DNA of 64,000 bases, taken from Eucommia ulmoides. Taxonomy: Eukaryota; Streptophyta; Magnoliopsida; Garryales; Eucommiaceae. The translations under genes and the position numbers were made by a program. The notes below the pieces were generated by a model. It was not told the DNA's origin, searched no databases, and saw nothing but the letters and a program-made list of their open reading frames with translations. The stretch spans positions 34,486,212-34,550,211 of the forward strand of contig CM028335.1 in NCBI GenBank assembly GCA_016647705.1, given 5' to 3'. Positions 148 through 49,247 of this stretch are shown here, one piece after another (the first letter of the stretch is position 1; each line of letters starts with the position of its first letter).

Positions 148-2894
148 TATTGAATCTAAGGTTTTGATAATCACTTAAGTATTGATATTTTTTGTAGAAC
201 TAATATTTTTACGAAGTGTTTCAGATTTATAGTTTTATGATTTTGATTAAGAAGAAGAATCATTGAAGAAAATATAAAGTGTAAAAGATGTACATGATGA
301 AGACGTAAAGAGTTTTGAAAACGCAAAAGAAAATTAGGTGAAAACAATTCTTTACTTATATACTCATAATGCAACCCAAATTAGGATCACGTACGACACT
401 TAAATGAGCTAATCCTATGTGTGTCTTGATAAGAAATAATAAGTTTAAGATCCTAAAATAAGATATTTTATGTTCTCTTTATGTGAAATGGTTTTGATAA
501 ATGATGTTGATCCTAAGATTTTGATAGACAATTAAATGTTGATATTTTTGGTGGAACTAACAATTTTATTGAGTGTTTCAGTTTATTAGTTCCAGTGAAG
601 AGATTATCATGAAGATATTGAGAAAAATGCTAAATGGATGCCAAAGATATTGACAAAGATGATGCATGTTAAGAGATCGAAGAATTTGAAGAACCTAGAG
701 AAAACAACTCAGGTTAAATTTATACTCTTAATGTATCCCAATTAGAACCATACACGACACAAAATATTTTTACAATTATGTCTGTTTTTTATAGGATCCT
801 AATTAGCTAACATATTTGCTCTTATATGTAATTGAAGAAGAAACAATTGATTTAAGAAAGATAATTAATTAAAATTGAATTTAAGGATTTAGTAGAGTTA
901 ACCAAGAAAAGAAATTGGTTAAAAGGGCAAAAACGTCGAGGAAATTTAGTAGAATATTAATTAAGGAGAGGTGTTCCAGCTCAATCGGTCGACCTACACA
1001 AATTGATCGGTTAACTGATGGAATGGAGCAAAAAAGAAAATTTAGTCCCTGAATTGGTCAATCGATAACTAGGTCGACTTATGGAAATGAGACAAACTCT
1101 CTGAATCTTCTGGTCGACAGGTAAGTCAACTTATGGTTAAAACGTGAACTCTTTGAATAGTTAGGTCGATAGGTAAGTCGACTTATTAAACTCTCTGAAT
1201 CATTCGGTCGACATATATAAAATGAGCGGTTGACTTATGGCGAAAGAATTTTGGCATAGGCTACGTCCTGAATTGGGCAATCGACCGATGGGTGTTGGTC
1301 AGTCAACCGATGACCACTTTTAGGATTTGAGATTTTTATGGTTTTGATCCAAAAAGTAGCCGTTACAAGCCGTTTTATGGTTAAGATATGTGAGATATCT
1401 CAGGGATCTGATAGTTTTTGAGCTATTTAGTTAATATTTTAATATCCCTATAGATACGGTTCAAGTACTTTGGATATCTCTCAATTTAGTTCATGAAATT
1501 CTTTCTATCTTATCTAATTGAGATTGAGTATAAGTTTGAGGGACTAAATTGAATGTTTTAAAAGATATAATTAAGTGAATTATGCCAGGAATGGGTCTTA
1601 ATGATATAAGGGGGCTATTGGAGTAATTATTTGTCATGAAATATGAGAACTAGTCGTTAGAGGGCTTGTTCTAATCCCCCATAAATAAACCTGCGTTTTT
1701 GGGGTTTCAATAATCCTATTCATTTTTCAATTCTGAAGAGCTATTAAGTTCTTGTGCTTTCTAAGAGTTATCATACTGAGAGAATTGTGAGAATTTTCTT
1801 GAGAATCATTTATGAGATATTTTGAAGTGGATTATAGTTGATTGCTGACTTAAGATTTTATTGCTTATCATATTTATCAGTGGATTCCTGGTGAGATTGT
1901 TTCAAGTTGATTACTGTTAATTGATTGTTTACTATTACCATATTCTACTTGGAATTTGATCTTTGAAATTGTTTTCCTATTTTTAAATTGAAAATTATTT
2001 TTGAAACAATTTCTTAAGAAAATTTGATTACGTGTTAAATTGTTTGCTACCCATTTTTTGTTTAAAATTAGATTTTGAAATTCTCATTATATTTCTATCA
2101 CTAGTATCGGGACATTAATTGAGTTCAAATTTATCTGGGGTGGTAGAAGTTCTGAGTGGAAAAATCACTTATCAATTTTTTAATTGGTAAGTTGAGTGTC
2201 GGATTAGATACTATTGAGAGTGTCTAATTAATGATAGTTGGTTTCAATCTCTTCCGGTAAAGAGATTGAAGTTTGATATTTACCTAAGTACAAAAATGTT
2301 AGGTTACTCTTTTCCCTTGAAAAGAGTTAGGTGTGATTCTTCCTGACTAGGATCAATTGTGAGTGAATTGTAAATGTTCCATCCTTACCTGGAAAAAAGA
2401 TACTTGGAGTGATTGTGAGGTTTGATTCTTAGCCTAAGGTATAAAAGAATTAGGTTTGATCCTTAGCCTATGAAAGGATTAGGTTAATCTTTAACCTGGA
2501 AAAAAGATAGGGTTATTCCTGAGCCTGTGAAAATGGATTGTAAATGTTGATTCTGAGCCTGCGAAAATAATCATTTTGTAAGGGTTTGGTTCCTACCTGG
2601 TTAAAGGAATCATAGTGATTAGTGGGTGCGACTCTCCTCAGAGCTCGGGGAACTAGATTAATCAAGAATAGTTCGGTGAACTAGTACAAATTTCTGATGT
2701 GCTACATTCTTTAATTTATTTATATTTGTGTTATTTGGCGTGCATCTAGTTGACATAATATTTTCGTTACTATAAAGATAATAATTAATTTAGAATAAAA
2801 TTAATTATTTGAGTTTTTGAAGTGTTATTATTTGATAATTTTTTTTTATTACTACCCAATTCACCCCTCTCTTAGGTAGCTCACTGGGCCAACA
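148..2894 (+). mobile_element. S-type Copia LTR with duplicated head
   Basis: Long LTR-like sequence that follows a polypurine tract and ends in CCAACA at 2889-2894, like the other S-type copies in the window. Its first part is present twice (148-504 and 505 onward), both with the same order of landmarks: a TGTTGATCCTAAG-like start, a TTGAGTGTTTCAG-like block and a block related to GGATCACGTACGACAC. A cluster of GGTCGACC-like motifs lies at about 980-1315 and a TATA-like CATAAATAAACC at 1680. The segment 2220-2640 has repeated short pieces of the type GATTCTTAGCCT. Old and diverged from the copies at 21395 and 38620. Confidence 0.65.
980..1315 (+). repeat. Cluster of GGTCGACC-like palindromic motifs in S-type LTR
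   Basis: At least ten copies or near-copies of GGTCGACC occur at uneven spacing, including TCGGTCGACCTAC near 985, AGGTCGACTT near 1072, TGGTCGACAGG near 1111, TCGGTCGACATA near 1205 and CAATCGACCGATG near 1280. Variants such as GGTTGACT and GGTCAACC differ from the core by C/T or G/A changes at the central CG. The cluster lies upstream of the TATA-like sequence at 1680. Confidence 0.8.
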
Positions 2895-4708
2895 AATAAC
2901 CTAACTGAAAAATGTGTTTTAAAGTGTAAAATATTGTGTTTTTAGGTCAATTCGGTCAACCGGAAAAAAGGGTCGGTCGACATATCAAAATATTGAGTTT
3001 TGCAAGTAGAAATAGAGTCCTACTAATCTAATTAGTCAACTAAGAAGAGCAATCGGTCAACTGATAGAAACAGTGGCTGAAACGAGTACAAGAGTGAGGA
3101 CTCTGATCGATTTGGTCAACCGAAGGATTCAGATTGGTCAACCGAATGAAACAATGGCTAAATTGAAGAAATTGGGAAAGCCACTGATCAAGTCGGTTAA
3201 TCGACAGGGTGTAAGGCCAACGGCTATTTCAGGCTTTGGCACAGAGCGGTCGACCGAGGGTTTCGGCCAGTCAACCGATTAGTTCAGTCAACAGATCGAT
3301 TATTTTGGTTTCTGCGTAAAAAAACTATCATTTTTTTTTTTTTTTAATTTATTTATTTATTCCAAGATAGATATTTGGGGGATTTGAGTGTAATTCAAAT
3401 ATTCCTGACTTATTATGTGATCCCTAGTGATTTGTTTCATATATTTTGATATTTTCTTAATTAAAGTGATTTAATACTTCCTATTCTTATGGATTTGAAA
3501 TCAGAAAAGTTTTATGGACCTAAATGGTTGTTTCAAAGAATAGTTTTAAATGAAATATACCTATATTGATAGAATATATTATATGGAGTCTTAGAATGCA
3601 TTTTTTACATATCTTTGAAAAACTAGCCGTTGGGGTTCTAGTTTTAGGTCTATTTAATCAGACATGCAGTTATAAGATTAAACACATCAAGAACATTAGT
3701 TTTGACATATTATAAGAGTGATATTAGTGCTGAAATTTCTACGATAGATTCTATTCAAGTTCTTGATCTAAAATGCTTACTATTTGGCATCACTAGTTTG
3801 AGTTCTAATTGCGATATCTTTCTTGTCCTCGTTGTTTCTCGGTGAGATCCTTCCAAGTTTTGTTATTTACTCTCTAAGATATATTATATGGATTGTTTGG
3901 GTTATGATTGTTTAGAAAATCGTTTTGAACTTAAAAGCTAAAAAAATATTTTAAACTTTTTTTTGATTGATTATTTGATTGCGTGCTTAATTTTTGCTAC
4001 CCACTTTATTATTAATCGGATTTTATTTGCCTCACATTGCACCTATCACATAATAATTATTCGGGCTATTAATTGAGTATATTTGTATTAAGGTGGTAGA
4101 TACTCCTTGTGGGAAGAAAGTTTCATTTTTTGTATTTGTGAGTTTGAGTGGATTAGACACGTTTGGGACAGTGTCTAGTCAGAGTAGCTAGGTTTTGATA
4201 TTTTTCTTGTGAAAAACATAGAGTTTGATCTTTGTCCTGTAAAAGGTTTAGATTATTCTTTTCCTTTGAAAATAACTAGGTTTTGATTCAGCCTGTAATT
4301 GAATTAAAAAGTGATTTGCAAAGGTTCGTCCTAACCCCGTGAAAAGGATAAGTGAGAGATTATTAGGTTGATTCTTAGTCAGTAAAAAGAATCAGAGTAT
4401 TATTAAGGTTGATTCTGAGCCTGTAAAAAAAATCGAGAATTATAAGGGTTTGGTTCCTACCTGGTAAAAGAATCAAGGGGTTTATTAGATTGCGAATCTC
4501 CGTGGAGCTTGGGAGATTAGATGTAGGTAAGAGTAGCTATTTATTTTCATATATTGTGTTTGGGTGTGCATTTGGTATTAAACACATTTTCGCTGCCTAA
4601 CAACATAATAATTGATTTAGGAAAATTGATTACTTGTGTTTAAAGGACTTAATTGTTTAAATTTAGTAACTACCTAATTTACCCCTTGGTTAGATTTTTG
4701 GGCCAACA
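2895..4708 (+). mobile_element. Second S-type Copia LTR, lacking its head
   Basis: Begins directly after the CCAACA end of the preceding LTR and ends in GGCCAACA at 4701-4708. It shares the S-type order: GGTCGACC cluster (about 2945-3290), GATTTCAGAGT-type mid-section, repeated GATTCT.AGCCT pieces (4240-4460) and the tail ending in CCAACA. About 400 bp of the usual LTR start is absent. Neither LTR is followed by a primer binding site, so this is a rearranged stack and not a simple LTR pair. Confidence 0.6.
2940..3300 (+). repeat. GGTCGACC motif cluster of second S-type LTR
   Basis: Contains TCGGTCAACCGG, GGTCGGTCGACATA, TTGGTCAACCGAAGG, TTGGTCAACCGAATG, GAGCGGTCGACCGAGG and CCAGTCAACCGATT among others. 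Most copies are GGTCAACC, the form left by loss of the central CG. A 69-residue open frame across it (3073-3282) is an accident of the repeat composition. Confidence 0.75.
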
Positions 4709-6809: not shown

Positions 6810-7189
6810 TGTTGACCCTAGATGTGTTGATGAATCAATCAACATTGACGTTTTAAGGAACTAATATGTTTATCGAGCATTTCTTATTTTAGTTCCGGTG
6901 GTTGAATGAGAAGAGGAATAATAATGATTGATATGGTTGCAATGAAGATATTGATTTTTTTTTTTTAGAAAGAAGAACAATTTTTATATTTCTAGGTAAA
7001 CAACTCAATTCTTCTTAAACTATTAATGCAACTCGATTAGAATCACGCACAACACTTGAAATTAACATGAAATATTTTTAAAGTGGTCAGAAGTGACAAA
7101 TTTAAGAGAATAAATGATTTTCCTAATCTGTCATCGAGAAAATGTTCTAAAAATTAGAAAAAATATGATTTATTGGTCTGGATGCTTGA

Positions 7190-7380
7190 TCGCCTGATAG
7201 ACCGGTCGACCATTTGATTCTTGATGGTGGTTTTTAGGGTTTTAGGCTATCCGATTGACTGTAAGGTTGAACGGGTGTTTTAGAGCCTAAAATGATCAAC
7301 CGACATGTCTTCAATGGCCATAAATCTATCTGTTAAAAGGCCATTTGGTCGACCGCTTGATGCGCCAGTCGATTGACTAG
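7190..7380 (+). repeat. GGTCGACC motif cluster of split S-type LTR
   Basis: Includes GACCGGTCGACCATTTG, ATCAACCGACATG, TTGGTCGACCGCTTGATG and CCAGTCGATTGAC. It is the same motif and the same LTR position as at 39025-39225. Confidence 0.75.
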
Positions 7381-7799
7381 AAGAAATTTAGTTTCTGACC
7401 GGGACGTTTTTCAATTTTCTTTCACCCATTTTTCAAACATTTGAATATTAAAAAATATTATTTTAATGGATTCTGACTTGTTTTCAAAGATATATCATAT
7501 ATTTTGGAGATTTTTTCATTTACTCCTTAATTTTCTCGATTTGGTGATTTATAGCGGATAAATTTATTTTTATTCTTTGATGGAATTAGATCAAACTACT
7601 TTTGGGACTAAATTTAGAGTTTTAAAATTTTTATTTTTGTTTAAATATTGATGAGTGGTTTATTTACCAACAAATCAATTACTTTTAGATTCAAATATTT
7701 GTGACTTTTCAAACATTTTTGTTAGTTTAATGTATTTTTTATGTTGTTTTGTAGAAATTATAAATAAATAGGAGAAAAGGTAAAAATATGAAAATTTGA

Positions 7800-8280
7800 T
7801 CGGAGAATACGGGCTGCAGCTCGATATTTTGGGCTGCAGCGGATCAAAACGAGTGAATTTGGTTAAAACATTGGGGCTGTAGTGCGAAAATGGAGCTACA
7901 GCATGGAAGGAAGAAGAGAAATCAGAACAAGCCAACCAAAAAGTTTGTGCCGCAGCGCAAAATCCTTTCATTGCAGCATCATTTTTCTATGTATTTTGGT
8001 GCTGCAGTGCCAACGAAATGGTACTGCAGCGCAAGATCAATTCACGTTATAGCGCCGCTCGACGAACTTCAAGCCCATTTTTTAACATGATGCAATTTGA
8101 TTTTAGAACAACTCAAAATATGAAAGTTGTAGATCTCTTTCTTAAATTTCCAAATAATTTTGAATCACCATAATCGAAGTTTAGATGAGAAGATTATGGC
8201 CATTTTTCAGAAGTTACGCGCTACAACACGAAAACTCCCACTGTAGCGCAAAATGCATACTACAGCACCAAAATGTGGGC
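7800..8280 (+). repeat. GCTGCAGC motif cluster, Athila-like II forward LTR
   Basis: Repeated GGGCTGCAGC, GTGCTGCAGTGC, GTACTGCAGCGC, GCCGCAGCGC and decayed forms such as GGGCTGTAGTGCG. The core GCTGCAGC is self-complementary. The cluster ends about 20 bp before TATATATA at 8301-8308. Confidence 0.8.
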
Positions 8281-8300
8281 ATGAACCCTAACGTAGAGCA

Positions 8301-8308
8301 TATATATA
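8301..8308 (+). promoter_or_regulatory. LTR TATA box
   Basis: TATATATACCACCTTA occupies the same place as CTATAAATACTACCTTA in the reverse copy (14307-14298, minus strand), which supports it as the LTR promoter. Confidence 0.5.
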
Positions 8309-8802
8309 CCACCTTATAACTTAAAACCCAGTGTGGTGATTTTGGGAGAGCTAACACCACATGGTGTGGCGATTTGAGACGGAATTGGAAACGAAAACAA
8401 TATTAGAGGCACAAAATCGCTTGACAGGGAGCTTGGAGTTGAAGTTTATTGAAGATTTGAAACTCATCTCCACAAAAAGAGTTTTAACTTTCTTTCTCAT
8501 ACCCTAATATTTATTGAATTATGTATTTTTGATAATGCATTGAACATGTTTATATTTCTAAATTTCTTGAAAAGATTAGTCATGGATTCCACTATGTTGA
8601 GTTAAAATTCATATCCAGAGCTTGGTATAGTCTCGTTGAACCATGTTTTGAATATTTTGTTAATTTTTAGTTTTAATTCCATTTTATGTATCTCTATGTT
8701 TAATGCATTTGATTCATGTGGCTAATGCGTTAGATGATTTTAGGTTGTGAATTTTATACTCGGGAGAAATTGAGTTCGTGACCAAAATTGAGAGTGTGTA
8801 AT

Positions 8803-10344
8803 TGGCACTGATTTATTTTGCTACACCGCAAGTGTACCAGTTAAGTTTAATTGTATAAGGAGAGTAGAGTACCATATCTACATGGATTGATTTAAATTGC
8901 TGCTAAATATCACGATTATCGTAACCCAAATTTATCTAGGCAACCAAACTTAAGGTTTATAAAAATAAAATAAAACTAACACAAAAAAAAAAAAAAGCTA
9001 AGTAAAATATGGACTTCCTATGCACAAAAGTTCTAGGGGATTGATTTCATTTCGTTATTTCCATGTTATCCTATTAAGCAATTATTAGTCAATTTCATTA
9101 ATTCAATAATTAAGGTCACTCATGCTCCCTCATTACTTCTCCCGAGTGTCAAGTGAGAGAATATGCGAACACTTCAAGACAGATATCCCTATCTAATATT
9201 TAGGTAAGAACATTTGTTATGCCTCAACCTTATAGATTACCTAAGCTTTAATAATCTCTCAAGCAATTAAAACTTACATTGTGCTTAACCTAAGATCGAA
9301 CCCAAAATTATCTTTCCCGAGTGTAAAATCTCAAGTTCTCAAATCAACCAAGATATCATATGGGAGCATAAATTAGAAGCATTAATAAGGCAAAAACAAT
9401 TGAATAGAGATTCCAGTAGATAAATCTAGAACTTGATCAAGATCCTAAATTCCCAACTCAAATACCTAGGTGTTGATATCTTCCTGAACTCACAACAACC
9501 TAAATTATGTACTCTTAATTTCGGTTACAAATTCAATCTCTCTCAACCGTAAAATTAATAACCTAAAATCATCTAATACATCGTCTACATAAATCGAACG
9601 CATTAAATATAGAGAGGCATAAAATGGAATTAAAACTAACAATTAACAAAATATTCGAAACATGGTTCAACGAGACTACATCAAACCCTATATATGAATT
9701 TTAACTCAACATAGAGGAATCCATAACTAATCTATTCATGAAATCCATAGAAGAAAATATGTTCAACACATTATCCACAAATACAAAAATCAATAAAAAG
9801 ATTAGGGTGAGAGAATGGAAGAAAAACTCTTTGTGGAGATAAGCTTCAAGCCTTCAAATCTTCAACAATCTTTAACTCCAAGCTCTCTTTCAAGGAATTT
9901 AAGGCCTCCAATGGTGTTTTTTTCTCCAAAATCAAGCCTCTAAAGTTGTCTTCCTCCTTAAATCTTGCCACACCCATGTTTGAGGCTTAACGTAGTTTTT
10001 ATAGGGCTTCGAGTGGGGTTTTTTGGGTTGAAGACGCTATAAATGGTGCTGCAATGGGGTTAGGCATGCTGCAGCACACTTTTGGGTTGTTGAGCATTGA
10101 TGGGAGTATGCTACAATGAAGAAAAAGCCCATTGCAGCGCACTTTGGGCAGTAGCTGGCTCAAATGTGCGCTGCAACGAAGAAAAATCACGTTGCAGCGC
10201 GCTTTGGGCATTGCTAACATTTTCACCCAATTATTTGTTCCTACAAAACAACACAAAATTAGATCAAACTAACAAAAATTCTTGAAAATTCACAAATATT
10301 TGAATCTAAAAGTACTTGATTTGTTAGTACATAAACTACTCATC
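8803..10344 (-). repeat. LTR-a (3' LTR of array)
   Basis: Plus-strand text starts TGGCACTGATTTATTTTGC and ends CTACTCATCA. It is about 170-215 bp shorter than LTR-b and LTR-c because a block near 10210, present at 14490-14690 in LTR-b, is absent. It contains a GCTGCAGC cluster (10030-10205) and a TATA box (CCTATAAAAA, minus strand, 10005-9996). Confidence 0.8.
10025..10205 (-). repeat. GCTGCAGC-type cluster in LTR-a
   Basis: Contains GTGCTGCAATG, GCTGCAGCACAC, GTTGCAGCGCGC and TGCGCTGCAACG. It sits about 25 bp upstream of the LTR TATA box in element orientation. Confidence 0.7.
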
Positions 10345-12953: not shown

Positions 12954-13092
12954 GACGACTTGTTAATGAAACATCATAAAGTACCTCACAATATAAACTA
13001 AACTCAAAAAATAAAAATTAGAAATAAAAATAAATGCCTAAATTAAAATGAAGTTACTTATTCACAATATTAACAACAATCTAAAACGCCAA

Positions 13093-13110
13093 TCCCTGCC
13101 AACGGCGCCA
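13093..13110 (-). other. Primer binding site, tRNA-Asp type
   Basis: Reads TGGCGCCGTTGGCAGGGA on the minus strand, close to the TGGCGCCGTTGCCGGGGA site that Athila elements pair with tRNA-Asp. It lies six bases inside the end of LTR-b. Confidence 0.8.
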
Positions 13111-14297: not shown

Positions 14298-14307
14298 TAT
14301 TTATAGG
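14298..14307 (-). promoter_or_regulatory. LTR TATA box
   Basis: CCTATAAATA on the minus strand. The same site is CCTATAAAAA in LTR-a (10005-9996) and a decayed form in LTR-c (near 18780). Confidence 0.55.
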
Positions 14308-14334
14308 GCTTTAACTAGGGTTTTTCGGGTTGAA

Positions 14335-14475
14335 GATTCTGCAAATGGCGCTACAGCGGGGTTGGGTGTGTACAGATAAGAAAAATCCAGCTGCAGCATG
14401 CTTTGGGCGGTAGCTAGCTTGAATGCGCGCTGCAATAGAGAAAAATCACGCTTCAGCGTGCTTTGGCAACGCCGA
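14335..14475 (-). repeat. GCTGCAGC-type cluster in LTR-b
   Basis: Contains GGCGCTACAGCGGGG, AGCTGCAGCATGC, GCGCGCTGCAATAG and CTTCAGCGTGC, ending about 30 bp upstream of the TATA box in element orientation. Lower symmetry than in the forward copy. Confidence 0.7.
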
Positions 14476-17589: not shown

Positions 17590-17595
17590 AAAACT

Positions 17596-19352
17596 TGGTA
17601 GCGATTTATTTTGCTACACCGCAAGTATACGGGTCAAGTTTTTATAGTATAGGGATAGTAGAGCATCGTATCCACAAGGATTTTTTTAAATTATCGCTAA
17701 GTTCCGCAATTATCGTAACCCAAATTTATTTAGGGAACCAAATTTAAGGTTTATAAAAAAATAAAACTAATATCAATTCAAAAGCAAAATAAAATATGGA
17801 CTTTCTATGCACAAATGTTCTAGGGTCTTGATTTCATTTCGTTATTCCCATGTCGTCTAATTAAGCAATTATTAGCCAATTCCATTCATTCAATAATCAA
17901 GGTCACTCTTGTTCACCTACTTCCTCTCCTGAGTGTCATGTGAGAGAATTTGCAAACACTTTAATACTTATATTCCTATATTGTATTTAGGTGAGAACAT
18001 TCATTATGCCCCGACCTTATAGATTACCCAAGCTTTAATAATCTCCCGATCTATTAAAACTTAAGTTGTGCTAAACCTAAGTCTGAACCCAAAATTCCCC
18101 CGAGTGTTAAATCCCAAGTTCTCAAATCAACCAAGATATCATATGAGGGCATAAATTGGAAGTATTAATAAGGAAAACAAAATTGAATAGAAATTCTAGT
18201 TGATAAATCTAGAACTTGATCAAGATCCTAAATTCTCAACCTGAATACCTAGGTGTTGATCTTCTCCCAGACTCACAACAACCTAATTATGCACTCTTAA
18301 TTGCGGTTACATACTCAGTCTCTCTCAAGCATAATATTCATAACCTAAAATCATCTAATTCATGAGACACATGAATCAAACACATTAAACACAGAGAGAC
18401 ATAAAATTGAATTAAAACTAACAATTAACAAAATATTTAAAATATAGTTCAACGAGACTACATTAAGCCCTAGATATGGATTATAACTCAATATAGAGGA
18501 ATTTATGACTAATCTTTTTAAGAAACCCATAGATGCAAACGTGGTCAACACAATATCCACAAATACAAAAATCAATAAAAACATTAGGGTGAGAAAAGAG
18601 AAGAAAAACTCTTTGTGGATATGAGCTTCAAGCCTTCAAATCTTCAACAATCTTCAACTCCAAGCTATATCTCTAGGAGTTTGAGGCCTCTAATGGTGTT
18701 TTTGTCTCCAAAATTAAGCCTACAATGTTGTCTTCCTCCCCAAATCTCACCACACCCATATTTGAGGCTTAAAGTAGTATTTGTAAGGCTTCAAATAGGG
18801 TTTTTTCGGGTTAAAGACGCTGCAAACGGCGCTGCAGTGGGGTTGGGTGCATTACAGTGCGCTTTTGGGCCATGTAGCACTGACAATAGGGCATTGTAGC
18901 TGAGAAAAATCCCACTGCAACACGCTTTGGGCTGTAGTTGGCTTGAATGCACACTGTAGTGGAGAAAAATCGCACTGTTGCGCGCTTTGGGTAGCACCAA
19001 CACCTTTTCGTATTTTAGCCATAACCTTCGTGTGTGAACTTCGATTGAGATGATTCAATAAAAATAAAATAAAATTGGGAAGTTAAGAAATAGATCTACA
19101 ACTTCCATATTTTGAGTTTATCCAAAATCAAATTTCAATGTTGTCAAATTTGAGCTTGAAGTTGCTGCTCCTGTATTACTGACAAACCATTACAATCCAA
19201 TTCACCTACTTTTACGACATTTTTACCTTTTCACCCAATTGTTTATAATTAATACAAAACAACACAAAAATATATCAAACAAAAATACTTGAAAACTCAC
19301 AAATATTTGAATGTAAAAGTACTTGATTTGTTGGTAAATAAACTACTCAACA
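17596..19352 (-). repeat. LTR-c (5' LTR of array)
   Basis: A 1757-bp LTR, plus-strand text starting TGGTAGCGATTTATTTTGC and ending CTACTCAACA. It carries the GCTGCAGC-type cluster at about 18815-18990 (GACGCTGCAAACGG, GGCGCTGCAGTGGG and decayed copies). Confidence 0.8.
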
Positions 19353-21779: not shown

Positions 21780-22075
21780 CAAGGCTAAGTGGTTGACTGG
21801 CTAAGTAGGCGGTTGACTGATAGAAGTAGTGCATGGATAAAGTAGTTTCTAGTCCAATCGGTTGATCAACGGAAAGTATCAATTGACTGATGTGATTAGT
21901 AGCTTTGAATGATGAGCTTTAGGTCGGAATGGTTGACCACCATAATTGTTGGTCGATTGATCAAGGGTGCAAACAGTAAAAAATACTACTGTTTTGAAGG
22001 ATTCGATTGATTGACAGGGTCTCGGTCGACCTCACCAGGATTCCGTCAGAGTTGATTGATTCATTTTTAATATCT
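21780..22075 (+). repeat. GGTCGACC-type motif cluster (mostly decayed)
   Basis: Contains AGTGGTTGACTGGC, GGCGGTTGACTGATAG, CAATCGGTTGATCAACGG, AATGGTTGACCACC, TTGGTCGATTGATC and TCTCGGTCGACCTCACC. Nearly all departures from GGTCGACC are at the central CG. Confidence 0.75.
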
Positions 22076-23416: not shown

Positions 23417-24702
23417 TGATAGGTGAAATTTAGCTATCTATTTTCAAATCAAATTTGATAGTTTTCAAGTATTCTTGTAATATTTTAATTTTATTTTATT
23501 TATTTTTGTTCAAAATAGGGGTTAGGAGTGAAAACGGTCGCAAAACGAGAAAATCGGTGGAAAAACGATGAAGTGTTAAAGCAGAAAGTTCACCCCTGCA
23601 GTAGTCAGCCTACCGCCGTAGCGGTGAACAAACAGAGAGTTCCCTAAGTTTCTGATCGCTCACCGCTGCATCGGTGAAACCTACGGTTGTAGCGGTCAAT
23701 GGCTAGCCGTTTTAGATATTTTCTAGATATTTTGTTTTTGTTCCTGATCCATTCCCACTTCTCCAAGAACATTTTGGGAGTGTTTTTGAGTATTCTAAAA
23801 ATCTCTCAACCAACCAAAGCGGAGGAACACAATTGGAGAAGAGGAAACAAGATTAGAGCGATTTTTACGAACGCCACCTTCAGATAACGGCTATTCTCCC
23901 TTGTTTCTCTCTTTATTCTTAACTTGTTTTTAGTTGTTTGAATATGTATACATGGATTATTGTTGAATATTCGGTTATGGCCAAGAGCTAAACACTAATT
24001 ATCTATGGGATTGATGTAGTTTACTAATATACGTTGTTTGAGTAAATCGTGTTTCGTTAATGATTGTTTATCTTTATTCGATTGTGTTTACTATTATTTT
24101 ACCTCCATAATATTCTTGTTATGATATTGTCGTTGATTTGGGAATACGGGGTTTGACACTCAGGAGAAGTAACCCCGAATTCGGACTAGGGTTTAAACAC
24201 AAAGCGACGACCTAATGACCTGGGTGGGCGTTAAAACGTTTGCAACCCATAAGGTTGGGGCGAGACTCATGTGATCAAGTATCCTATAAACGCTCTAGGG
24301 GGACTTCGGCATTGACATGAAGTCACATATTCATTTATTTTACACTCGGGAGAGGTAGTGAGTAAGTTTTCGATACCTAAATTGTCGGATAGATTTGAAT
24401 ACCGTTATTGTAAACTAGATTGGATCAAACATATATAAGTAAACGGAGTGAATCCCTAGATAATCTATTCCCATATAATATATTTAGGTATTATAGTTTA
24501 ATCAATTGTTAATTTAGTATATTATTTATAAAAACAAAAATCCAATTTTTATCGCCTAAATAAAGTTCGGTTATGATAATCATGGTACTTAGCGACAATT
24601 TAATCCAATCCCTATGGATATGACAACCCTACTCCTTCACTATTCTATAAAACTTGACCCGTACACTTGCAGTGAAAGTAGCGACGTAATATTTCGCTAC
24701 CA
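23417..24702 (+). repeat. 5' LTR of gag-only Athila-like element
   Basis: A 1286-bp LTR. A cluster of CCGCTGCAGCGG-type motifs lies at 23590-23700, including CCCTGCAGTAG, ACCGCCGTAGCGGTG, ACCGCTGCATCGGTG and GGTTGTAGCGGTC. Its end carries ACTTGACCCGTACACTTGC, a block common to all Athila-like LTRs in the window. Confidence 0.8.
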
Positions 24703-24707
24703 AGTTT

Positions 24708-27304: not shown

Positions 27305-28651
27305 TGATAGGTGAAATTTATCTATCTATTTTCAAACCGAATTTGGTAGTTTTTCAGTATTCTTATAATATTTTAATTCGTTTTTATTTGATTTTATTTA
27401 TTTTTATTCAAAACATGGGTTAAGAGTGAAAATGGTCGAAAAACTAGGAAATCGATGGAAAAACGATGAAATATTAAAGCAGCAGTTTCATCGATGCAGC
27501 GGTCAGCCCACCGCTACAGTGGTGAAACAACAGAGAGTTCCCTAAGTTTTTGATCACTCACCACTGCAGTAGTGAAAGGGAAGAAAGCCTACCGACATGG
27601 CCACCGCTACAGCGCTAAAACCCATTGCCGTAGCGGTCAATGGCCAGTTGTTTTAGATATTTTTTAGATATTTTGTTTTTGTTCCCTTTTGTTCCTGATC
27701 CATTCCCACTTCTCCAAGAACATATTGGGAGTGTTTTTAAGTGTTCTAAAAATCTCTCAACCAACTAAAGAGGAGAAACACAATTGGAGAAGAGGAAACA
27801 AGATCAGAGTAGTTTTTACGGACGCCACCTTCAGATAATGACTATTCTCCCTTGTTTCTCCCTTTATTCTTAACTTGTTTTTGGTTGTTTGAACATGTAT
27901 TTATGGATTATTGTTGAATATATGGTTATAGCCAAGAGCTAAACACTAATTATCTATGGGATTAATGTAGTTTACTAATATACGTTGTTTGAGTAAATCA
28001 TGTTTCGTTAATGATTGTTTATCTTTATTTAATTGTGCTTATAGTTCTTTTACCTCCATAATATTCTTGTTATGATATTGTCGTTGATTTGAGAATACGG
28101 GGTTTGATACTCGGGAGAGGTAACCAACCATTCGAACTAGGGTTTAAACACAACGCGACGACCTAATGACCCAGGAGGGTGTTAGAAAGTGTGCAATCCG
28201 TGAGGTTGGGGCGAGACTCATGTGACCAAGTGTTGTACAAACGCTCGAGGGGGACTTCGGCATTGATGCAAAGTCACATATTCATTTACTTTATACTCGA
28301 AAGTGGTAGTGAGTGGGTTTTGGATACCTAGATTATCAAATAGATTTGAATACCATTAATGTAAATTAGATTGCATCAAACACGTATAAGTAAAAGAAGT
28401 GAATCCCTAGATAATCTATCCCATATAATATATTTAGTATTATAGTTTAATTAATTGTTAATTTAGTATATTATTTATAAAAACAAAAACCCAATTTTTA
28501 TCGCCTAAATAAAGTTCGGTTATGATAATCGCGGTACTTAGTGATAATTTAATCAAATCCCTGTAGATACGACAACCCTACTCATTCACTATTCTATAAA
28601 ACTTGACCAGTACACTTGCGGTGAAAGTAGTGACGTAATATTTCGCTACCA
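27305..28651 (+). repeat. 3' LTR of gag-only Athila-like element
   Basis: A 1347-bp LTR with a motif cluster at 27478-27645 (TCGATGCAGCGGTC, ACCGCTACAGTGGTG, CCACCGCTACAGCGC, GCCGTAGCGGTC). It is longer than the 5' copy owing to small insertions, one near 27580 inside the motif cluster. Confidence 0.8.
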
Positions 28652-28799: not shown

Positions 28800-30212
28800 T
28801 GTACGATGCAATTTTTACGCTCACATATTAACTACTCGCAAGTGCACGATGTCATGTTTTAGTATAATAGATCTTTAAGATCGAATATCGTTCCACTTGG
28901 AAAGTGTTTGAATAATTGAATACCACAATTTGCATAGTCTTATATTATCCCCACGGTTCAAGAATTATTTAAAATTAAACTAATTAAAACTAAGTTAAAG
29001 TACAATTAGTGGGTTAATACTAACTAAGTTCATTACCTAAGGATTGATTTCATTCAATTAATACATGTTTGACTTTGTTTAGTTAACAATAACGATGCTT
29101 ATCCTATCCAACAATCTCGATATCTTAAACTCATACACTCTCTCTCTCGAGTGTTTAGTGAATGAATACATGACTTCGCATTGACGCCGAAGTCCCACTT
29201 GAACATCTTTTCGAACACATAGTCACGTGAGTCTTGACCTAACCTCATGGATTGAACACTCTCCAACTCTCTCCCGAGTTGTTGGATTGCTGCGTTGTGT
29301 TTACCCTAGTCCGAATTCGGGGTTACCTCTCCCGAGTGTCAAACCCCGTATTTTCAAAACCAACCCTAATACCTTAACAAGCATATTAAAATTGTAATAG
29401 AGTGATAACCACAATCGGATTTAGACAAACAAACTTTAAAGAAACTTATATTCCATCAAACTAGTATATACATGAGTTACAATTATCTCTAACTAATATT
29501 TATCTAATCTACCATGATCTTGGCCATTGAAACATTAAACCAAGAGGGATTCATCATCATTCACAATAAAACATTAAGTTACAAAGAAATAAACAAAGGA
29601 AGAAAGATCAAATCTTAAAGTGGAGTGGTCCACTATCGCCAAAGATCGATCCACTAGTGTTTCCTCTTCTCTGAATGATGAATCTCCTCTTTGAGCTCTT
29701 CAAGAATGGCCAAAGATCACCTCCTAATGTTAGGGATGTCCAAGAAGTTTTTTTGTAAGTGGGAGAAGAAGTTTTATACGTGTAAGGGTCCAAAAATATC
29801 TAAAAATATCTTAATTCTGTACAGAGTTGACCGCCTCAGGAGTGGGGATCACCGTTGCGGTGGTAGGTATGTCGGCTGGCTCCTAAATTCTCTGATCTTT
29901 CACTGTCACGATGGTGGATATCACCACCATGGTAGTGAAACAGGCTCCAACTATCCGCACTTTCACCGCCTCGGCGGTGGAACTTGTTCATTTTCAGCAT
30001 CTCCTAGCATTCTCACCGCTGTGGTGGTGGGTCTACTGCTCTTGAAACTTTGCTTCTTCAACGTTTTTCCACCGTTTCGCTCGGTTATCACTTTTTTACA
30101 TCCCTACACCTAAATTATATAAAAACTAACAAAAATGCAATTAAATATTTCTAATACACTTGAAAACTATCAAATTCGGCTTAGAAGTAGATAGGTATAT
30201 TTCAACCTATCA
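28800..30212 (-). repeat. 3' LTR of the 28800-36086 element
   Basis: A 1413-bp LTR with a CACCGCCGCGGCGGTG-type cluster at 29828-30030 (worn copies such as ACCGTTGCGGTGGTAG, ATCACCACCATGGTAGTG, CACCGCCTCGGCGGTGG, CACCGCTGTGGTGGTGG). A TATA box (GTATAAAA, minus strand) lies at 29779-29772. A 140-residue open frame across 29691-30113 arises from this repetitive stretch and is not a gene. Confidence 0.8.
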
Positions 30213-31899: not shown

Positions 31900-33000
31900 T
31901 GTTTACCTGGGAAAGCGTCATCGCTACCACTATCACGTCGGAATAGAAATTGTGGCGGTTACAAAAGGTACGGCGGCACATTCGGCATAGGCGGATAAGC
32001 ACTCATGTCAATGCCGAAGCGCTCGCACATGAGCCAATGGATTTGATCTTGATGTCTCGTATATTGATCCAGGTAAGTTCCAAGCTCGTATTGCCCTTGG
32101 CGAACCTCCTGGAGCTCCCTATAGATTCTCTCTAAAGTGACCTCCTCGTGGGCTTCTGATGGCCCCGTTTTTTCCTCTGTAGGCTCTTCCTCATCTTCAA
32201 CTTCATGCTCGGCCGCCCCTTATGCTCCGGCTTTCCACATTCTATTAATCATCGCAAGATCAAGTGGAACAATTGGGGGGCAAGGATTGTCCCCAGTCAC
32301 CGAGACACCGACGCGTCGGAATAAGTCAGTCAAGAGTGATAGAAATGGGAGACCGGCCTTCGTTGTATTGACCGGATGGATAATCGAAGAGTAGATCAAG
32401 TAGCCAACATTGATCGGCTTTCTAGTCTGGATCGAGTATAGCACCATGGCCCGGTCTTAAGAGACGTATGAGAAGTGAGACATCGGGAGAAGACTTCTAC
32501 ATACAAAAAGAGAAATTTTTCCAGGAATGTGGCGAGAGCCGGCCCAGTGTGTGTCTACTATACATTGTCGGAAGTGATGGATCTGATTATTATATCCAAG
32601 CTCGGGTCTCGGCCGCCATAAGGTTCGTCAGTGGTTCCAATCCCAAAACCTCATTGATGAGCTCAGGACTAAAAGAGATTGGGCGAGTGTAGACCCTTGT
32701 CCGGTAGTCAACGACTTCGGTGACATTGGCATAAAACTCCTAGACTAGGGCCACCTCGCCTTGGGGAGGTGATTTGCATAACTATTCCCAACTGCGGCTT
32801 CGAATGACATCTTGAAATTCCTTCGGGAGGTTATCTAATGGTCCAAATACCCTTTGTCGGATACAAGTTTGCTTATGCTCAAATCGGTGGAAATGTTCCT
32901 CCACTTGCTTGGACACAAAGCGTGTGGAATCGTAGTTCGTGGCGGCACCTCCGGTTCGAGAACTTGTAAACTTTTACCCCGTGCCCTCTTTGAAGCAACT
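31900..33000 (-). pseudogene. Putative plant transposon protein (PF20167-like) relic
   Basis: The minus-strand frame 32447-32220 contains MVLYSIQTRKPINVGYLIYS, then LPFLSLLTDLFRRVGV. This resembles the conserved end of the 'putative plant transposon protein' domain (family pattern: aliphatic LLY.I...INVG..I..SI, then G.PFPSLIT.LC...GV). The domain occurs in proteins coded by Athila-like and other non-autonomous LTR elements, and its function is unknown. Weaker matches extend to both sides. The frame is broken. Assignment rests on recalled family pattern. Confidence 0.6.
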
Positions 33001-33619: not shown

Positions 33620-33815
33620 ATAGAGGCCTTATCGCCGTGGCGGTGTGAGTGCCTTTTTTAAAACCTCAGCATTCTACTGTTTCACCGCCTAGGCGGTGGG
33701 AATCATCGCCTTTCTTAAAAATATAACACTCTGTTGTTTCATCGCCGCGGCGGTGACGCATTTATGCTGAAAACTTGAAATCCTGTATTTTCACCGCCGA
33801 GGCAGTGAGCTTGTT
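33620..33815 (-). repeat. Extra CACCGCC..GGCGGTG cluster in the interior
   Basis: Four well-kept copies lie inside the internal region: ATCGCCGTGGCGGTGTG, CACCGCCTAGGCGGTGG, CATCGCCGCGGCGGTGAC and CACCGCCGAGGCAGTGAG. They match the LTR motif of this element and the solo LTR at 47792 (CGCCTAGGCG), but no LTR lies here. Confidence 0.75.
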
Positions 33816-34618: not shown

Positions 34619-34624
34619 AAAACT

Positions 34625-36086
34625 TGTTCGATGAGGTTTTTACACTCACGTATTGACTACTCGCAAGTGCACGAGGTTAAGTTTTAGTATAATGGATCTT
34701 TAAGATTGGATATCGTTCCACTGGGAAAGTGTTTGAATAATTGAATAACACAATTTGGATAGTCTTATATTATCCCAATGGTTCAAGAATTATTTAAAAT
34801 TAAACTAATAAAAACTAAGTTAAACTACAATTAGTGGGTTAATCCTAACTAAGTTCATTACCTAGGGATTGATTTCATTCAATTAATACATGTTTGACTT
34901 CGTTTAGTTAACAATAACGATGCTTATCCTATCCAACAATATCGGTATCGTAAACTCATTCACTCCCTCTCCCGAATGTTTAGTGAATGAATACATGACT
35001 TCGTGTTGACGCCGAAGTCCCCTCGAACGTATTTTCGAACACATAGTCACGTGAATCTTGACCCAACCTCATGGATTGTACACTCTCCAACTCCCTCCCG
35101 GGTTATTGGATTGTCGCGTTGTCTTTACCCTAGTCCAAATCCGGGGTTACCTCTCCCGAGTGTCAAATCCCATATTCTCAAAACCAACCCTAATACCTTA
35201 ACAAGCATATTAAAATTGTAATAGAGCGATAACAACAATCGGATTTAGATAAACAACCGTTAAAGAAATTTATATTCCATCAAACTAGTATATACATGAG
35301 TTACAACAATTTCTAGCTAATATTTATTTAATCTACCATGATCTTGGCCATTGAAATATTAAACCAATAGGGATTCATCATGATTCACAATAAAACATTA
35401 AGTTACAAAGAGATAAACAAAGGAAGAAAGATCAAATCTTAAAGTGGAGTGGTCCACTATTGCCAAAGATCGATCTGCTAGTGTTTCCTCTTCTCCGAAT
35501 GATGAATCTTCTCTTTGAGCTCTTCAAGAATGGCCAAGGATCACCTCCTAATGTTAGGGATGTTCAAGAGGCTTTTTTGTAAGTGGGAGAACAAGTTTTA
35601 TAGGTGTAAGGGTCCAAAAATATCTGAAAATATCAGAAAATATCTTAATTCTGTACAGAGCTGACCGCCGCAGTAATGGGGTTCACTGCTACAATGGTGG
35701 GTTTGTTGGCTGGCTCCTAAACTCTCTGATCTTTCACCGCCGCAGTGGTGGATATCACTACTGCGGCGGTGAAATAGGCTCCAACTCTCTGCACTTTCAC
35801 CACCTCGGCGATGGCCAGACCGCCTAGGCGGTGGGACTCGTTCATTTTCAGCATCTCCCAGCATTCTCACTGCCGCGGTAGTGGCCTGACCGCTGCGGCG
35901 GTAGGTCTGCTGCTCTTGAAACCTTGCTTCTTCACAATTTTCCTACCGTTTTGCTCGTTTATCACTTGTTTACGTCTCTACACCTGAATTACATAAAAAC
36001 TAACAAAAAAGCAATTAAATATTACTAATACACTTGAAAACTACCAAATTCGGCTTAGAAGTAGATAGGTATATTTCAACCTATCA
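34625..36086 (-). repeat. 5' LTR of the 28800-36086 element
   Basis: A 1462-bp LTR. A cluster of CACCGCCGCGGCGGTG-type motifs lies at 35660-35915, including CACCGCCGCAGTGGTGG, CACTACTGCGGCGGTGAA, ACCGCCTAGGCGGTGG, CACTGCCGCGGTAGTGG and GACCGCTGCGGCGGTAGG. A TATA box CCTATAAAA (35604-35596, minus strand) follows about 60 bp downstream in element orientation. Confidence 0.82.
35596..35604 (-). promoter_or_regulatory. LTR TATA box
   Basis: CCTATAAAA on the minus strand. The same box is CCTATAAAA in the solo LTR (48798-48790) and GTATAAAA in the sister LTR (29779-29772). Confidence 0.6.
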
Positions 36087-36389
36087 ATATGCTTAACATC
36101 CTAGATAAAACGATCATGTGGCACACACTATGGATAATATTTTATGTGTATCATCTCTTAAATATGATAGATCCTTATGTGATAATATTATTAATGATTC
36201 TTGTGGTATTAGTGGCAGTGATGAAAATGATGATAATTCATCCCTATTGGGTGGATCTGTGGGCTAACACTAATTTAGTATTTTATATTTTATTTTAATT
36301 TAGTATTTTGTGTGTTTTTAATCATAATATTTATGTGGATCACTTGATAAATGAATGAGGATGCAAAAGTGTCAGAATTAATCCTATTC

Positions 36390-36540
36390 GATTGACCGAC
36401 AAGATGATCGGTTGACCAAAAAAGTGATGTGACATTTTAAATAGTCAAGTGTTATGATAGCCAGTCGACTGCCCTATATAATGGCCAGTCGACCGAATGT
36501 CGGCAATATATGCTTGTGAACCTAGGGTTTTTCCTCATTT
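36390..36540 (+). promoter_or_regulatory. Promoter-like segment: TATA box between two GTCGAC palindromes
   Basis: CTATATAAT (36474-36482) is flanked by CCAGTCGACTG (36461-36471) and CCAGTCGACCG (36485-36495), with GATCGGTTGACC and CGATTGACCGAC further upstream. The downstream text GAACCTAGGGTTTTTCC resembles a plant LTR leader. It may be the LTR remnant of a further element. Confidence 0.5.
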
Positions 36541-38619: not shown

Positions 38620-40395
38620 TGTTGGCCTAGACATTTTGATGAGCCAATTGTTGGCCTAGATATTTTGATGAGTCAATTAACAATAAGGTTTTGAGGAACT
38701 AATGTGTTTTTTGAGTATTTCAGATTTTAATTCGGGTTCTTGAATGAGAAAACTCTATGAAGAAGAATGATAATGATCGAGATGGTTACAATGAAGAAAT
38801 TGACGAATTTTTGGGCAAGAACAATTTTTTTGAATTTCTAGGTATACAATTCAATTCTTCTTAAACACTTAATGCAACCCGATTAGGATCACATATAACA
38901 CTTAAAATTATCATGTAATATTTTTGAAGTGGTCAAAAGTGATAAGTATAAGAAAATAAATGATTTTCCTAAGTCCTTGATCAAGAAAATATTTTTAAAA
39001 TTAGAAAAAATGATTTCTTGGTCTGGACAGTCGATCACCCAATAGGTTGGTCAACCGTTTGATTAAGAATGGTGGTTTTCAGGGTTTTAGGCTATCTAGT
39101 CAACCGTTAGGTTGAACGGTTGTTTCAGAGCCTAAAATGGTTGACTGCCCAGTCGATCGACTTGTGTTTAACAGCTAAGAAATCTATCCGTGGAAAGGCG
39201 ATCACGTCGATTGACTAGGTAAAATTCAGTTTTTTACCAGAACCATTTTTGAAGATCTTCCACCCATATTTCAAGTATTTGTACCTTAAGAAATATTACT
39301 TTAATCGATTTTGACTGGTTTTCAAAGATATATCATATATTTTGAAGATTTTTTTGTGCTATATATTTCTTGATTTGGTGATTTATACTTGATGAAATTA
39401 TTTCTATTTTTTAATTGGCTTAGTTCAAATTATTTTTGGGACTAAATTTGGAGTTTTAAATTTATAATTTTTGTTAAATATAACCATTATAAATCTATTT
39501 TTTGTATGGATTTTATATGCACTATTTTTTTTTTATATATATCTTTTGTAAACTAGCCGGTATAGGCTAGTTTTAACATCTATTCATCTAGACTTGCGAA
39601 ATTCATTTGAAATCGATCAAGAATACATATCAAATCAATATTTTTTTTAAGAGAAAGTTGATATTTTCCCAAAATATTTTTGACATAAATGTTTTAAGAA
39701 ATTTTTGATCAAGGCTATCTCTACCAAAACTCCAAGTGTGATTCTACGTTGCTACTTTATACATATTTTTTAAGGAAATCCCGGTGAGATCACTCTATTT
39801 ACTTTTTCTTGCTCAAATTGGTTGTGTTATATGTGATTCATATATATTTTGAGGATTTGAACTTGTTATTCTTGTGATCGAAAATAATTTTTATTACTAA
39901 ATACATTGAAAATCTAATTGCAAATATATCTATGCTTTAATTTCTGTAAATTGGATTTAGTATCTCATACAATTCTATCACTTGCCTATCGGGACATTAA
40001 TTGAGAGTAATTTTGAATTAAGATGGTAGAAATTCTTATGAGAAGAAACTTGTATTATTTTTTATATTAGTGAGTTGCTGCTTAAACCTAAACGTATCTT
40101 GTTTAAGTGAGAATGAATTAGGCATAAAGCTAATCAAGGTTAATCTTGCTTCTAGAAAAAAAAATAAAAAAAAAAATTAATCTTTAGCTTAGGAAAAAAA
40201 TAGGTTTGATTTAGAGTCTGAAAAAAGAATTAGGTTAATTCTGCGCTTGTGAAAGGAATTGTAAAAGTTTGGTTCCTACCTGAGAAATGCATCAAGAGTT
40301 AGTGGATTGCGAATTTTCAGCTGGAGCTAAATGGAGAAGATACAGGCAAGAGTAGCTTGTTGAACCTCCATAAATCTCCGTGTTTCAATTCTAAA
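38620..40395 (+). repeat. 3' S-type LTR, 3' end missing
   Basis: Starts TGTTGGCCTAGACATTTTG; its first 29 bp are duplicated in tandem (38620-38648 and 38649-38677). It carries the GGTCGACC-type cluster at 39025-39225 and the same mid-section landmarks as 21395-23416. Recognisable similarity stops at about 40395, before the usual CCAACA end. Confidence 0.75.
39025..39225 (+). repeat. GGTCGACC-type cluster of 3' S-type LTR
   Basis: Contains CAGTCGATCACCC, TTGGTCAACCGTTTG, CTAGTCAACCGTTAGG, TGGTTGACTGCCC, CAGTCGATCGACTTG and CACGTCGATTGACTAG. Symmetric but worn. Confidence 0.7.
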
Positions 40396-42575: not shown

Positions 42576-42578
42576 GAT

Positions 42579-47791: not shown

Positions 47792-49247
47792 TGGTAGCGC
47801 ATGAAATACGCTGCTACTTACTCTCGCAAGTATACGAGCTCTAAGTTTTAATATTGTGGATCTTTGAAGATCGGATATCGTTCGCATAGGGAAAGTGTGA
47901 ATAATTAAGTATTGCAATTTATGTAGTCTCATATTATCCTGACGATTCAATTAATATTTTAGATTAAACTAATTAAAACTACTCTTAGGGATTAATTCTA
48001 ATTACACTAATTAACTAGGGATCAATTTCATTCACTTAATACCTATTTGGCTTAGTTTAGTTATCAATAACGGTTATCATCACATCCAACAATCTCGGTA
48101 TCTATAACTCACTCGCTCCCTCTTCTGAGTGAAAAGCGAGCGAATACATGACTTCGCATTGACGCCGAAGTCCCCCTCGAATGCCTTTTCGAACACATAG
48201 CCACGTGAGTCTTGACCCAACCTCATGGATTGCACACTCTTCAACTTCCTCCCGGATTATTGGATCATCGCGTTTTGTTTAACCCTAGTCCAAATCCGGG
48301 GTTACCTCTCCTGAGTGTCAAACCTCGTATTCTCGGTTTATCATAACAAGCATAATAAACGTGAAATAATGGTAAACAAAATTGGAATTGGATAACAAAC
48401 CATTGAAATAACTTATATTCAACCAAAGAGATAGTTATATGAATTATATCTAACCCTAACTAATATCTAACTAAACTAACATGATCTTAGCCATTACAAT
48501 ATTAACTCCAGAGGAGATCATCATCATTAATAATAAACAATAAGTACAAAGATGGGAACAAGGAAAGAAAAGCCAAATCTTAAAATAGAGTAGTCTACTT
48601 TCGCCGAAGAACGATCCTCCCGAGCTTCCTCTTCACCATTGATGAACTTCCTCTTTTAGCTCTTCAAGAATTAGCCAAGGATCACTTCCTAAAACTACTC
48701 TAATCTACTCCTAAATTATCTAATCCTACCTAAGGTGAAAAGGGCTCTCAAAACATCCAAGAGTATTAATGGAAATGAGGGAAAAATGGTTTTATAGGTG
48801 CAAGGTTTCAAAATATCTAAAAATATCTGTTTGCTGTGTAGAGGATTTCGCCTAGGCAGTGGATTTTTTGCCTAGGCGGAGGTGATGTCGGTTAAGGTTC
48901 TGTCGCAACTTCGCCTAGGCCGAGGAATTTTCGCCTAGGCCGAGGAGCTGCTCCAAAGTTTCTGTCTCAACTTCGCCTAGGCCGAGGAATTTCCGCCTAA
49001 GCCGAGGGACTTCTGCCTCAACTTCGCCTAGGCCGAGGAATTTTTATCTAGGCCGAGATTCTGCAATCTTGAAACCTTGTTCTTCATTATTCTTCATCGT
49101 TTTCCCACCGTTTCGCTCGTTTGTCTCTTGTTTGCATCCCTATACCTGAATTACATAAAAATAAATTAAAAAGCAATTAAATATAACTAAAACACTCAAA
49201 AACTACCAAATCCGGTTTAGAAGTAGATAGGTATTTTACACCTATCA
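47792..49247 (-). mobile_element. Athila-like solo LTR with perfect GTCCA duplication
   Basis: A single 1456-bp LTR (plus-strand text starting TGGTAGCGCATG and ending ACCTATCA), flanked by GTCCA at 47787-47791 and 49248-49252. It is related to the LTRs of the 28800-36086 element, sharing AGATCGGATATCGTTC, CATTGACGCCGAAGTCC and the CCTATAAAA box at 48798-48790. It carries its own palindromic motif, CGCCTAGGCG. The perfect duplication dates solo formation after a recent insertion into the Tat 3' region. Confidence 0.87.
48845..49065 (-). repeat. CGCCTAGGC-type motif cluster in the solo LTR
   Basis: Seven or more copies: TTCGCCTAGGCAGTGG, TTGCCTAGGCGGAGG, four TTCGCCTAGGCCGAGG-type copies, TTCCGCCTAAGCCGAGG and ATCTAGGCCGAG. 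The CCTAGG core is self-complementary. The cluster ends about 50 bp upstream of the TATA box in element orientation. Some copies form near-regular tandem units with CTGCCTCAAC-type spacers. Confidence 0.85.

Follow-up and report, generated by a model that had tools for sequence, protein, structure and literature searches.

Results

Two groups of LTR retrotransposons in the window carry palindromic-word arrays

The window, i.e. the whole 64,000-nucleotide stretch of Eucommia ulmoides DNA analysed here, is a nest of degraded plant long terminal repeat (LTR) retrotransposons whose LTRs carry arrays of short palindromic words. A preliminary description of this DNA had proposed that unrelated LTR lineages share one design, an array of a private palindromic motif just upstream of the TATA box. 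Two groups of elements are dealt with below, Copia (Sirevirus-like) and Athila-type Ty3, labelled according to the motif word, the primer-binding site (PBS) and pieces of a reading frame matching PF20167; the name Athila is one that we take to be appropriate from the PBS and the PF20167 pieces. Common to both groups, over three words, is a distance of about two helical turns between paired copies. Self-comparison of the window revealed a plus-strand LTR pair (23417-24703/27305-28652), a minus-strand LTR pair (28800-30213/34625-36087) and a further related LTR at ~47823-49250; the region at ~8.8-19.35 kb looks like a tandem with three LTRs.

Athila-type copies were counted with a tolerant motif, which permits one mismatch in the arms and the decay of CpG, from CG to TG or CA. 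This motif is present 40 times in the 4,688 bp of ten array segments, picked since arrays had already been seen there, versus 28 times in the remaining 59,312 bp. The segments and their tolerant copies are:

7813..8031, plus strand: array A, GCTGCAGC-type with a TGCA core, in an Athila-type LTR; 5 copies; TATATATA at 8301
10047..10199, minus strand: array B, TGCA core; 5 copies; TTTATAGG at 9998
14348..14457, minus strand: array C, decayed TGCA-core copies, 1 of which passes the motif; TTTATAGG at 14300
18830..18922, minus strand: array D, heavily decayed; 2 passing copies, inside the shuffle range
23611..23676, plus strand: array E1, in the 5' LTR 23417-24703; 1 copy, inside the shuffle range
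27491..27636, plus strand: array E2, in the 3' LTR 27305-28652; 2 copies, equal to the shuffle maximum
29832..30026, minus strand: array F1, in the LTR 28800-30213; 5 copies, mixed in their cores and with CGC....GCG arms
35666..35900, minus strand: array F2, in the LTR 34625-36087; 7 copies with gaps of 20, 50, 20, 42, 21 and 72; TTTATAGG at 35597
33633..33804, minus strand: internal array X, in the 5' leader of the element 28800-36087, ~0.8-1.0 kb past the PBS; 5 copies with gaps of 52, 57, 24 and 29
48849..49034, minus strand: array G, CCTAGG core; 6 copies with gaps of 51, 42, 20, 43 and 20; TTTATAGG at 48791

In 200 dinucleotide shuffles of each segment, mean copy numbers were 0.21-0.65 and maxima 2-4. 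The internal array has 5 copies versus a shuffle maximum of 2; the counts in C, D, E1 and E2 are not above the maxima of their own 200 shuffles. The last four copies of array A are spaced by 21, 31 and 22 bp. Over the whole window, CGCCTAGGCG and TGTGTCGAC each occur exactly twice, and CCGCTGCAGCGG and CACCGCCGCGGCGGTG have no exact occurrence; the words quoted in the preliminary description are consensus sequences inferred from decayed copies. Near-perfect palindromes (GC-rich 12-mers in which 5 or all 6 pairs match) number 72 versus 47 expected (sd 6), a modest excess only, and repeated palindromic 8-mers, when scanned for, stood out little from letter-shuffled control words (19 windows with at least 4 copies versus a control mean of 8 and a maximum of 22). 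The clusters of GC-rich near-palindromes described for these LTRs are confirmed.

The window Copia LTRs show two Sirevirus-like signs, the motif word and a Met-type PBS remnant. Their six stretches hold clusters of 7, 7, 4, 5, 3 and 4 copies, versus means of 0-0.8 in 50 letter shuffles:

987..1308, plus strand: array of 7 tolerant copies, GGTCGACC and its CpG-decayed forms, in a Copia (Sirevirus-like) LTR; TATA-like word after 371 bp
2954..3276, plus strand: the second array in a Copia LTR, likewise of 7 copies; TATA-like word after 374 bp
7204..7354, plus strand: Copia LTR array, 4 copies, in an LTR broken by an Athila-type insertion at ~7648
21791..22031, plus strand: array of 5 copies in a Copia LTR; TATA-like word after 334 bp
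36390..36494, plus strand: short Copia-type cluster, 3 copies
39049..39146, plus strand: array of 4 copies in a Copia LTR; TATA-like word after 213 bp

The two short stretches of the six have no TATA-like word after the array. Within 987-3276, CpG decay turns GGTCGACC into GGTTGACC or GGTCAACC, both of which contain TTGAC, the W-box core; decayed GGTCGACC copies could thus gain WRKY sites.

Copies are paired at about two helical turns

The search space was the 947-Mb Eucommia ulmoides genome to which the window belongs. CGCCTAGGCG forms 4,814 exact pairs within 30 bp, where its backward control forms none; for CGCCGCGGCG and its control the figures are 52 and 0, and for the Copia word 71 forward plus 56 reverse, with controls of 0 and 1. 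Among the pairs listed, which are the genome's first places, the centre-to-centre distance is 19-23 bp in 46 of 50 CTAG-core pairs, 42 of 50 CGCG-core pairs and 66 of 76 Copia pairs, the latter derived from 100 rows by counting one-base-shifted opposite-strand rows once; even spacing would place 16% of pairs in that interval. A single pair of the 176 listed is 24-29 bp apart, and the main minor classes among them are found at 32-33 bp (3 and 6 pairs for the Athila words) and at 12 bp (5 Copia pairs). Arrays A and B of the window, which have the TGCA core, likewise show gaps of 20-22 bp. Among the 10-nt spacers, 26 and 20 different sequences were counted, on average 0.50 and 0.47 identical, so that spacers are conserved in length and not in sequence.

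The raw periodicity of the gaps is strong, with an R of 0.72 at 10.25 bp over 200 gaps versus 0.31 with each distinct gap length taken once; among 100 pairs listed, R is 0.80. Long-range CGCCTAGGCG pairs (50 listed of 7,236) lie 42-43, 50-53, 62-65 and 68-71 bp apart with none between; in part, these distances add up from a small number of blocks. That every longer gap is in phase with the helix was rejected, given the few independent block lengths and the equal phasing of 0.19 of random quadruples of such lengths.

Athila-type words are variants of one array

The preliminary description had regarded the words of the Athila-like subfamilies as non-homologous and the design as having arisen repeatedly. 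When 30 Athila-type upstream regions were compared, they formed one single-linkage cluster at matches of at least 500 bp. In the 20 loci L001-L020 (the 35-kb LTR, its partner and 18 relatives), ACCGC....GCGGT arms are common to 135 copies (strands mixed), the centres of which are CTAG (22), TGCG (17), CGCG (16) and others, mostly decay products. Because the LTRs are homologous and share the CGC....GCG arms, the words are not independent, independent invention of each was rejected, and they are variants of one homologous array. Decay in the arms is chiefly C>T and G>A, and compensatory change that would preserve palindromes in dead copies was not seen there. The central pair is paired in 84 of the 135 copies versus 55 expected, an excess that fits two inherited core types. 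As for the Tat array that had been reported, it consists of a 9-mer that is not palindromic and is present twice at a distance of 37 bp. The shared design stands for two groups, Copia and Athila-type Ty3; it falls as a set of separate inventions within Athila, and the Tat case does not show it.

Arrays lie upstream of the TATA box in Athila-type elements

Exact genome matches number 1,580 for the Athila-type PBS TTGGCGCCGTTGCCGGGGA and 4,201 for the Met-type pattern. The first 30 listed of each type, all on contig C1 and therefore a consecutive and not a random sample, were taken with 1,500 bp on either side of the PBS, which covers longer LTRs, Sirevirus included, only in part. The Athila-type motif is found upstream of 28 of 30 Athila-type sites (at least four copies in 15) versus 2 of 30 Met-type sites, and none of the 30 Met-type loci has two or more copies in these 1,500 bp; the design is thus not general among LTRs. 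An unsupervised search for GC-rich palindromic words gave at least four copies upstream in 19 of 30 Athila-type loci (mirror control 2 of 30, direct-repeat control 1 of 30). The same search gave 2 of 30 for Met-type loci, at the level of its mirror (1 of 30) and direct-repeat (3 of 30) controls. At least eight upstream copies were counted in 5 of 30 Athila-type loci (13, 11, 10, 8 and 10), copies being decayed and the count being limited to 1,500 bp.

The location of the Athila-type arrays bears out the earlier description. In L001-L020, where 2-8 copies per locus are found, again decayed, the array begins 184-217 bp into the LTR in 17 of 20 loci and the last copy precedes TATAAAA by 53-85 bp in 17 of 20. 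Among loci of the PBS sample with at least four copies, a TATA word lies at 33-72 bp in 11 of 18. The array-to-TATA distances step by ~10 bp; we place no weight on these steps because a 10-bp tandem repeat sits there. This repeat (AAAATATCTR on the plus strand, ~10 bp) lies between array and TATA box at 35615-35645 and in L001-L020, and A-tracts repeated in helical register could curve the DNA of that interval. In composition counts (medians of 18 loci), GC content is 0.51 versus 0.34 and there are 5.4 versus 2.2 CpG per 100 bp, but the CpG observed/expected ratio is 0.87 versus 0.79.

A second array in the 5' leader

The internal array of the element 28800-36087 is followed by a pyrimidine-rich stretch and then by the pieces of a frame:

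32223..32739, minus strand: broken reading frame, at ~0.9 kb past the internal array

Two of its four separate pieces matched PF20167, a putative plant transposon protein in Pfam, with E values of 5e-10 and 9e-5, both under the curated cut-off; none of the four matched known DNA-binding families. In the PBS sample, one or more motif copies are found 600-1,110 bp beyond the PBS in 10 of 30 Athila-type loci, and two or more in six of these ten (L027, L030, L031, L035, L037 and L039). L043 was excluded from this count, its copies sitting in a nested LTR; in three further Athila-type loci a lone copy lies past 1,300 bp. Downstream of Met-type sites, one copy is present in 4 of 30 loci and two in none.

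A search with the internal-array region yielded 2,152 first-look candidates; the 40 of these that were scored gave 41 matches. In ten further elements, LTR and internal cores are often different or mixed, and 2 of the 10 have 0-1 LTR copies in the stretch taken; one word per element is thus unsupported in this set. In L037 and L035, a splice-donor-like CAACAAGTAAGT is located after the internal array and the pyrimidine-rich stretch, a position which suggests that a spliced transcript may be initiated in the leader.

Nesting and other features of the window

By self-comparison, a Copia LTR within 6817-20400 is apparently split by a plus-orientation Athila-type LTR (~7648-8803 and 19353-20057), which is apparently split in turn, at 8803/19353, by the minus-strand tandem with its three LTR copies. 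Beyond the LTR arrays, ATTTCGATTTCGAAATCGAAAT and TTCGATTTCGAAATCGAA, long perfect palindromes that belong to a single family, are found at 56884-56905 and 57119-57136, and a 228-bp inverted repeat at 59669-59896, with an 89% match to its own reverse complement, is possibly a hairpin element. The open frame 16887-17438, the sole frame tested, gave two weak sub-cut-off Pfam matches, neither to a retrotransposon family.

Discussion

What reads the arrays?

The arrays would be upstream regulatory, enhancer-like blocks of LTR promoters. Each two-fold symmetric site would be occupied by a dimeric DNA-binding protein, and two sites 20-22 bp (~two helical turns) apart would place two dimers, possibly binding cooperatively, on the same side of the DNA. 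Tandem duplication of blocks holding such a pair would expand and contract the arrays, with the central letters drifting and the arms being kept. In Athila-type elements, a second array can be carried in the 5' leader ahead of a further reading frame, where it may have promoter activity of its own. We put the chance that the arrays are paired, same-face sites for a dimeric protein in a promoter-proximal enhancer at about even. Of the three functions suggested in the preliminary description, dimeric factors fit best because the pair spacing is near-fixed; RNA stems and silencing stay in play as alternatives.

Three other explanations were weighed. The arrays could act as RNA: transcribed in the U3 region of the 3' LTR and in the 5' leader, the paired palindromes would form hairpins feeding small RNAs and silencing, an idea already put forward for maize Sireviruses. 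This we consider improbable. Predicted folds are indeed strong relative to dinucleotide shuffles (z of -6.3 for F2, -3.7 for G, -6.2 for B, -4.8 for A and -2.4 for the Copia array, for which 1 of 100 shuffles folds equally well), and papers citing the maize Sirevirus work speak of a small-RNA excess over palindromes. However, any array of palindromes folds well, so that low energy is not independent evidence, and a hairpin loop need not be exactly 10-12 nt, yet hardly any listed pair strays to 24-29 bp. Also, tolerance of G-U pairs predicts a sense-strand excess of C>T over G>A, which is absent both from the L001-L020 family (75 C>T versus 96 G>A, p 0.13) and from 168 CGCCTAGGCG copies (55 versus 64). 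Alternatively, the arrays could be functionless, a neutral or self-propagating minisatellite in which a pair arose once per lineage and was spread by tandem duplication and retrotransposition. Pair-bearing blocks of ~70 bp are visibly tandem in the alignment of one subfamily, copy number varies, the spacing could be inherited by descent and the palindromes of the F subfamily vary more than its spacers. Against this, spacer sequences have diverged widely and their length is mostly still 10-12 nt, the same pair spacing occurs in two groups that have no mutual LTR match of at least 180 bp in the window self-comparison, and placement before the TATA box recurs inside the Athila-type group; we regard such an origin, too, as unlikely.

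By analogy with VANC proteins, the sites could instead serve an anti-silencing or activating protein encoded by the element. VANC targets are also motif arrays with tandem-repeat turnover, the CTAG and CGCG cores resemble two inherited subtypes, and the internal array is followed by an extra reading frame. Yet VANC motifs have one orientation and the words here are self-complementary, the cores of LTR and internal array differ in several of the ten elements compared, and the four frame pieces resemble no known DNA-binding family; an element-encoded reader of this kind is, in our estimate, a long shot. It is just as doubtful that Athila-type elements and Sireviruses independently evolved a two-turn paired palindrome array at each promoter they use, read by an element-encoded dimeric factor as a counterpart of VANC. 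Pairs of protein on one face are favoured because the spacing is near-fixed and the spacer sequence free, neither of which hairpins need.

Several observations weigh against the reading as same-face dimer sites. The 4,814 CGCCTAGGCG pairs and the other genome-wide pairs were counted without assigning each to an LTR, and pairs are related by descent and hence not independent. The phasing of longer gaps is not significant (the 0.19 given above), and 50 listed distances of 41-71 bp are best fit by a period of 9.6 bp; because phasing rests on few blocks and the longer distances favour 9.6 bp, our claim is restricted to the pair spacing. The internal array of the window is not phased, and a factor strictly specific for one word is hard to square with LTR and internal arrays whose cores do not always agree. 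Covariation is confined to the central pair, with none between paired columns in the arms (L001-L020, 135 copies, strands mixed). Non-CpG columns are somewhat better conserved in palindromes than in spacers in two subfamilies (0.91 versus 0.84 and 0.92 versus 0.89), but less well conserved than spacers in the F subfamily (0.76 versus 0.80), and CpG-like columns of the palindromes are below those of the spacers in all three groups (0.76/0.78, 0.82/0.83 and 0.62/0.76). As for placement, 7 of the 18 Athila-type loci with at least four copies have no TATA word within 130 bp. The window Copia arrays, said earlier to lie just upstream of the TATA box, are 213-374 bp from a TATA-like word in the four stretches having one. 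Finally, six further Copia relatives (L083-L088), with TATA-like words 104-443 bp after the array, have largest clusters of just 4, 1, 3, 5, 2 and 1 copies.

Finding paired copies about two helical turns apart in two superfamilies moves weight from RNA structure to protein binding and makes the identity of the reader a question that can be put to a direct test of binding. A host factor in this role would offer a shared route by which unrelated retrotransposons are switched on. If the reader were element-encoded, the arrays would point to a new anti-silencing strategy, in which the frame behind the internal array would be an example of a source and the word of each family would be private and drifting.

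Comparison with known systems

In our literature search, palindrome arrays in Athila LTRs were not described at the level of titles, abstract beginnings and passages, which is weak evidence of absence. The Copia half of the design is already known: in the parts of Bousios 2010 (PMC2829016) consulted, palindromic repeated motifs are described upstream of the TATA box in 13 Sireviruses, with a CGG-CCG signature and at least eight copies per element. There, the motifs begin 200-400 bp into the LTR and border a CpG island, the TATA box averages 37 bp past the island, and extra copies precede the env-like gene. Del elements are another case for which CpG islands in LTRs are discussed, in the text available to us. 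The Vitis Sirevirus motif CGGTCGACCG given in PMC2829016 is the word of the window Copia arrays, with GGTCGACC as its core. The likeness extends to a dyad-symmetric GC-rich word repeated in the LTR and, in Athila-type elements, to a second array ahead of a reading frame, as Sirevirus motifs lie ahead of the env-like gene; the start position and the close TATA box are matched by the Athila-type arrays, not closely by the window Copia arrays. The same source, as far as consulted, terms the motif Sirevirus-specific and absent from classic retrotransposons, the comparison being with other Ty1/copia elements. What was described as a Sirevirus speciality is now found as the same architecture in a second superfamily: new here are the design in a Ty3-type lineage, whose PBS (TTGGCGCCGTTGCCGGGGA) differs from the Sirevirus one, the second array in the 5' leader, and the fixed pair geometry, measured in this work.

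Citing papers, as far as their passages go, report a small-RNA excess over palindrome-rich regions of maize Sireviruses (Bousios et al. 2016 Genome Research). LTR palindrome clusters with strong predicted structure are common to both cases; the maize palindromes are tied to small RNAs, in the passages available, and those described here are known from sequence alone.

Tnt1 box I is a single palindrome and not a paired array. As a dyad-symmetric regulatory box in an LTR it resembles the words described here, and it is named as a symmetric regulatory sequence in the portion of PMC2829016 consulted. VANC proteins, according to the parts of Hosaka et al. 2017 (PMC5735166) consulted, bind motif arrays that are private to the VANDAL elements they come from; these arrays are non-coding, turn over via tandem repeats and have subtype changes that spread inside the array. 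The likeness lies in family-private arrays of short motifs in non-coding DNA and in their evolution by tandem repeats. VANDAL elements are DNA transposons. Their motifs, in the passages at hand, have one orientation, are non-palindromic and have demonstrated binding, whereas the words of the Eucommia LTRs are self-complementary and are read from their sequence.

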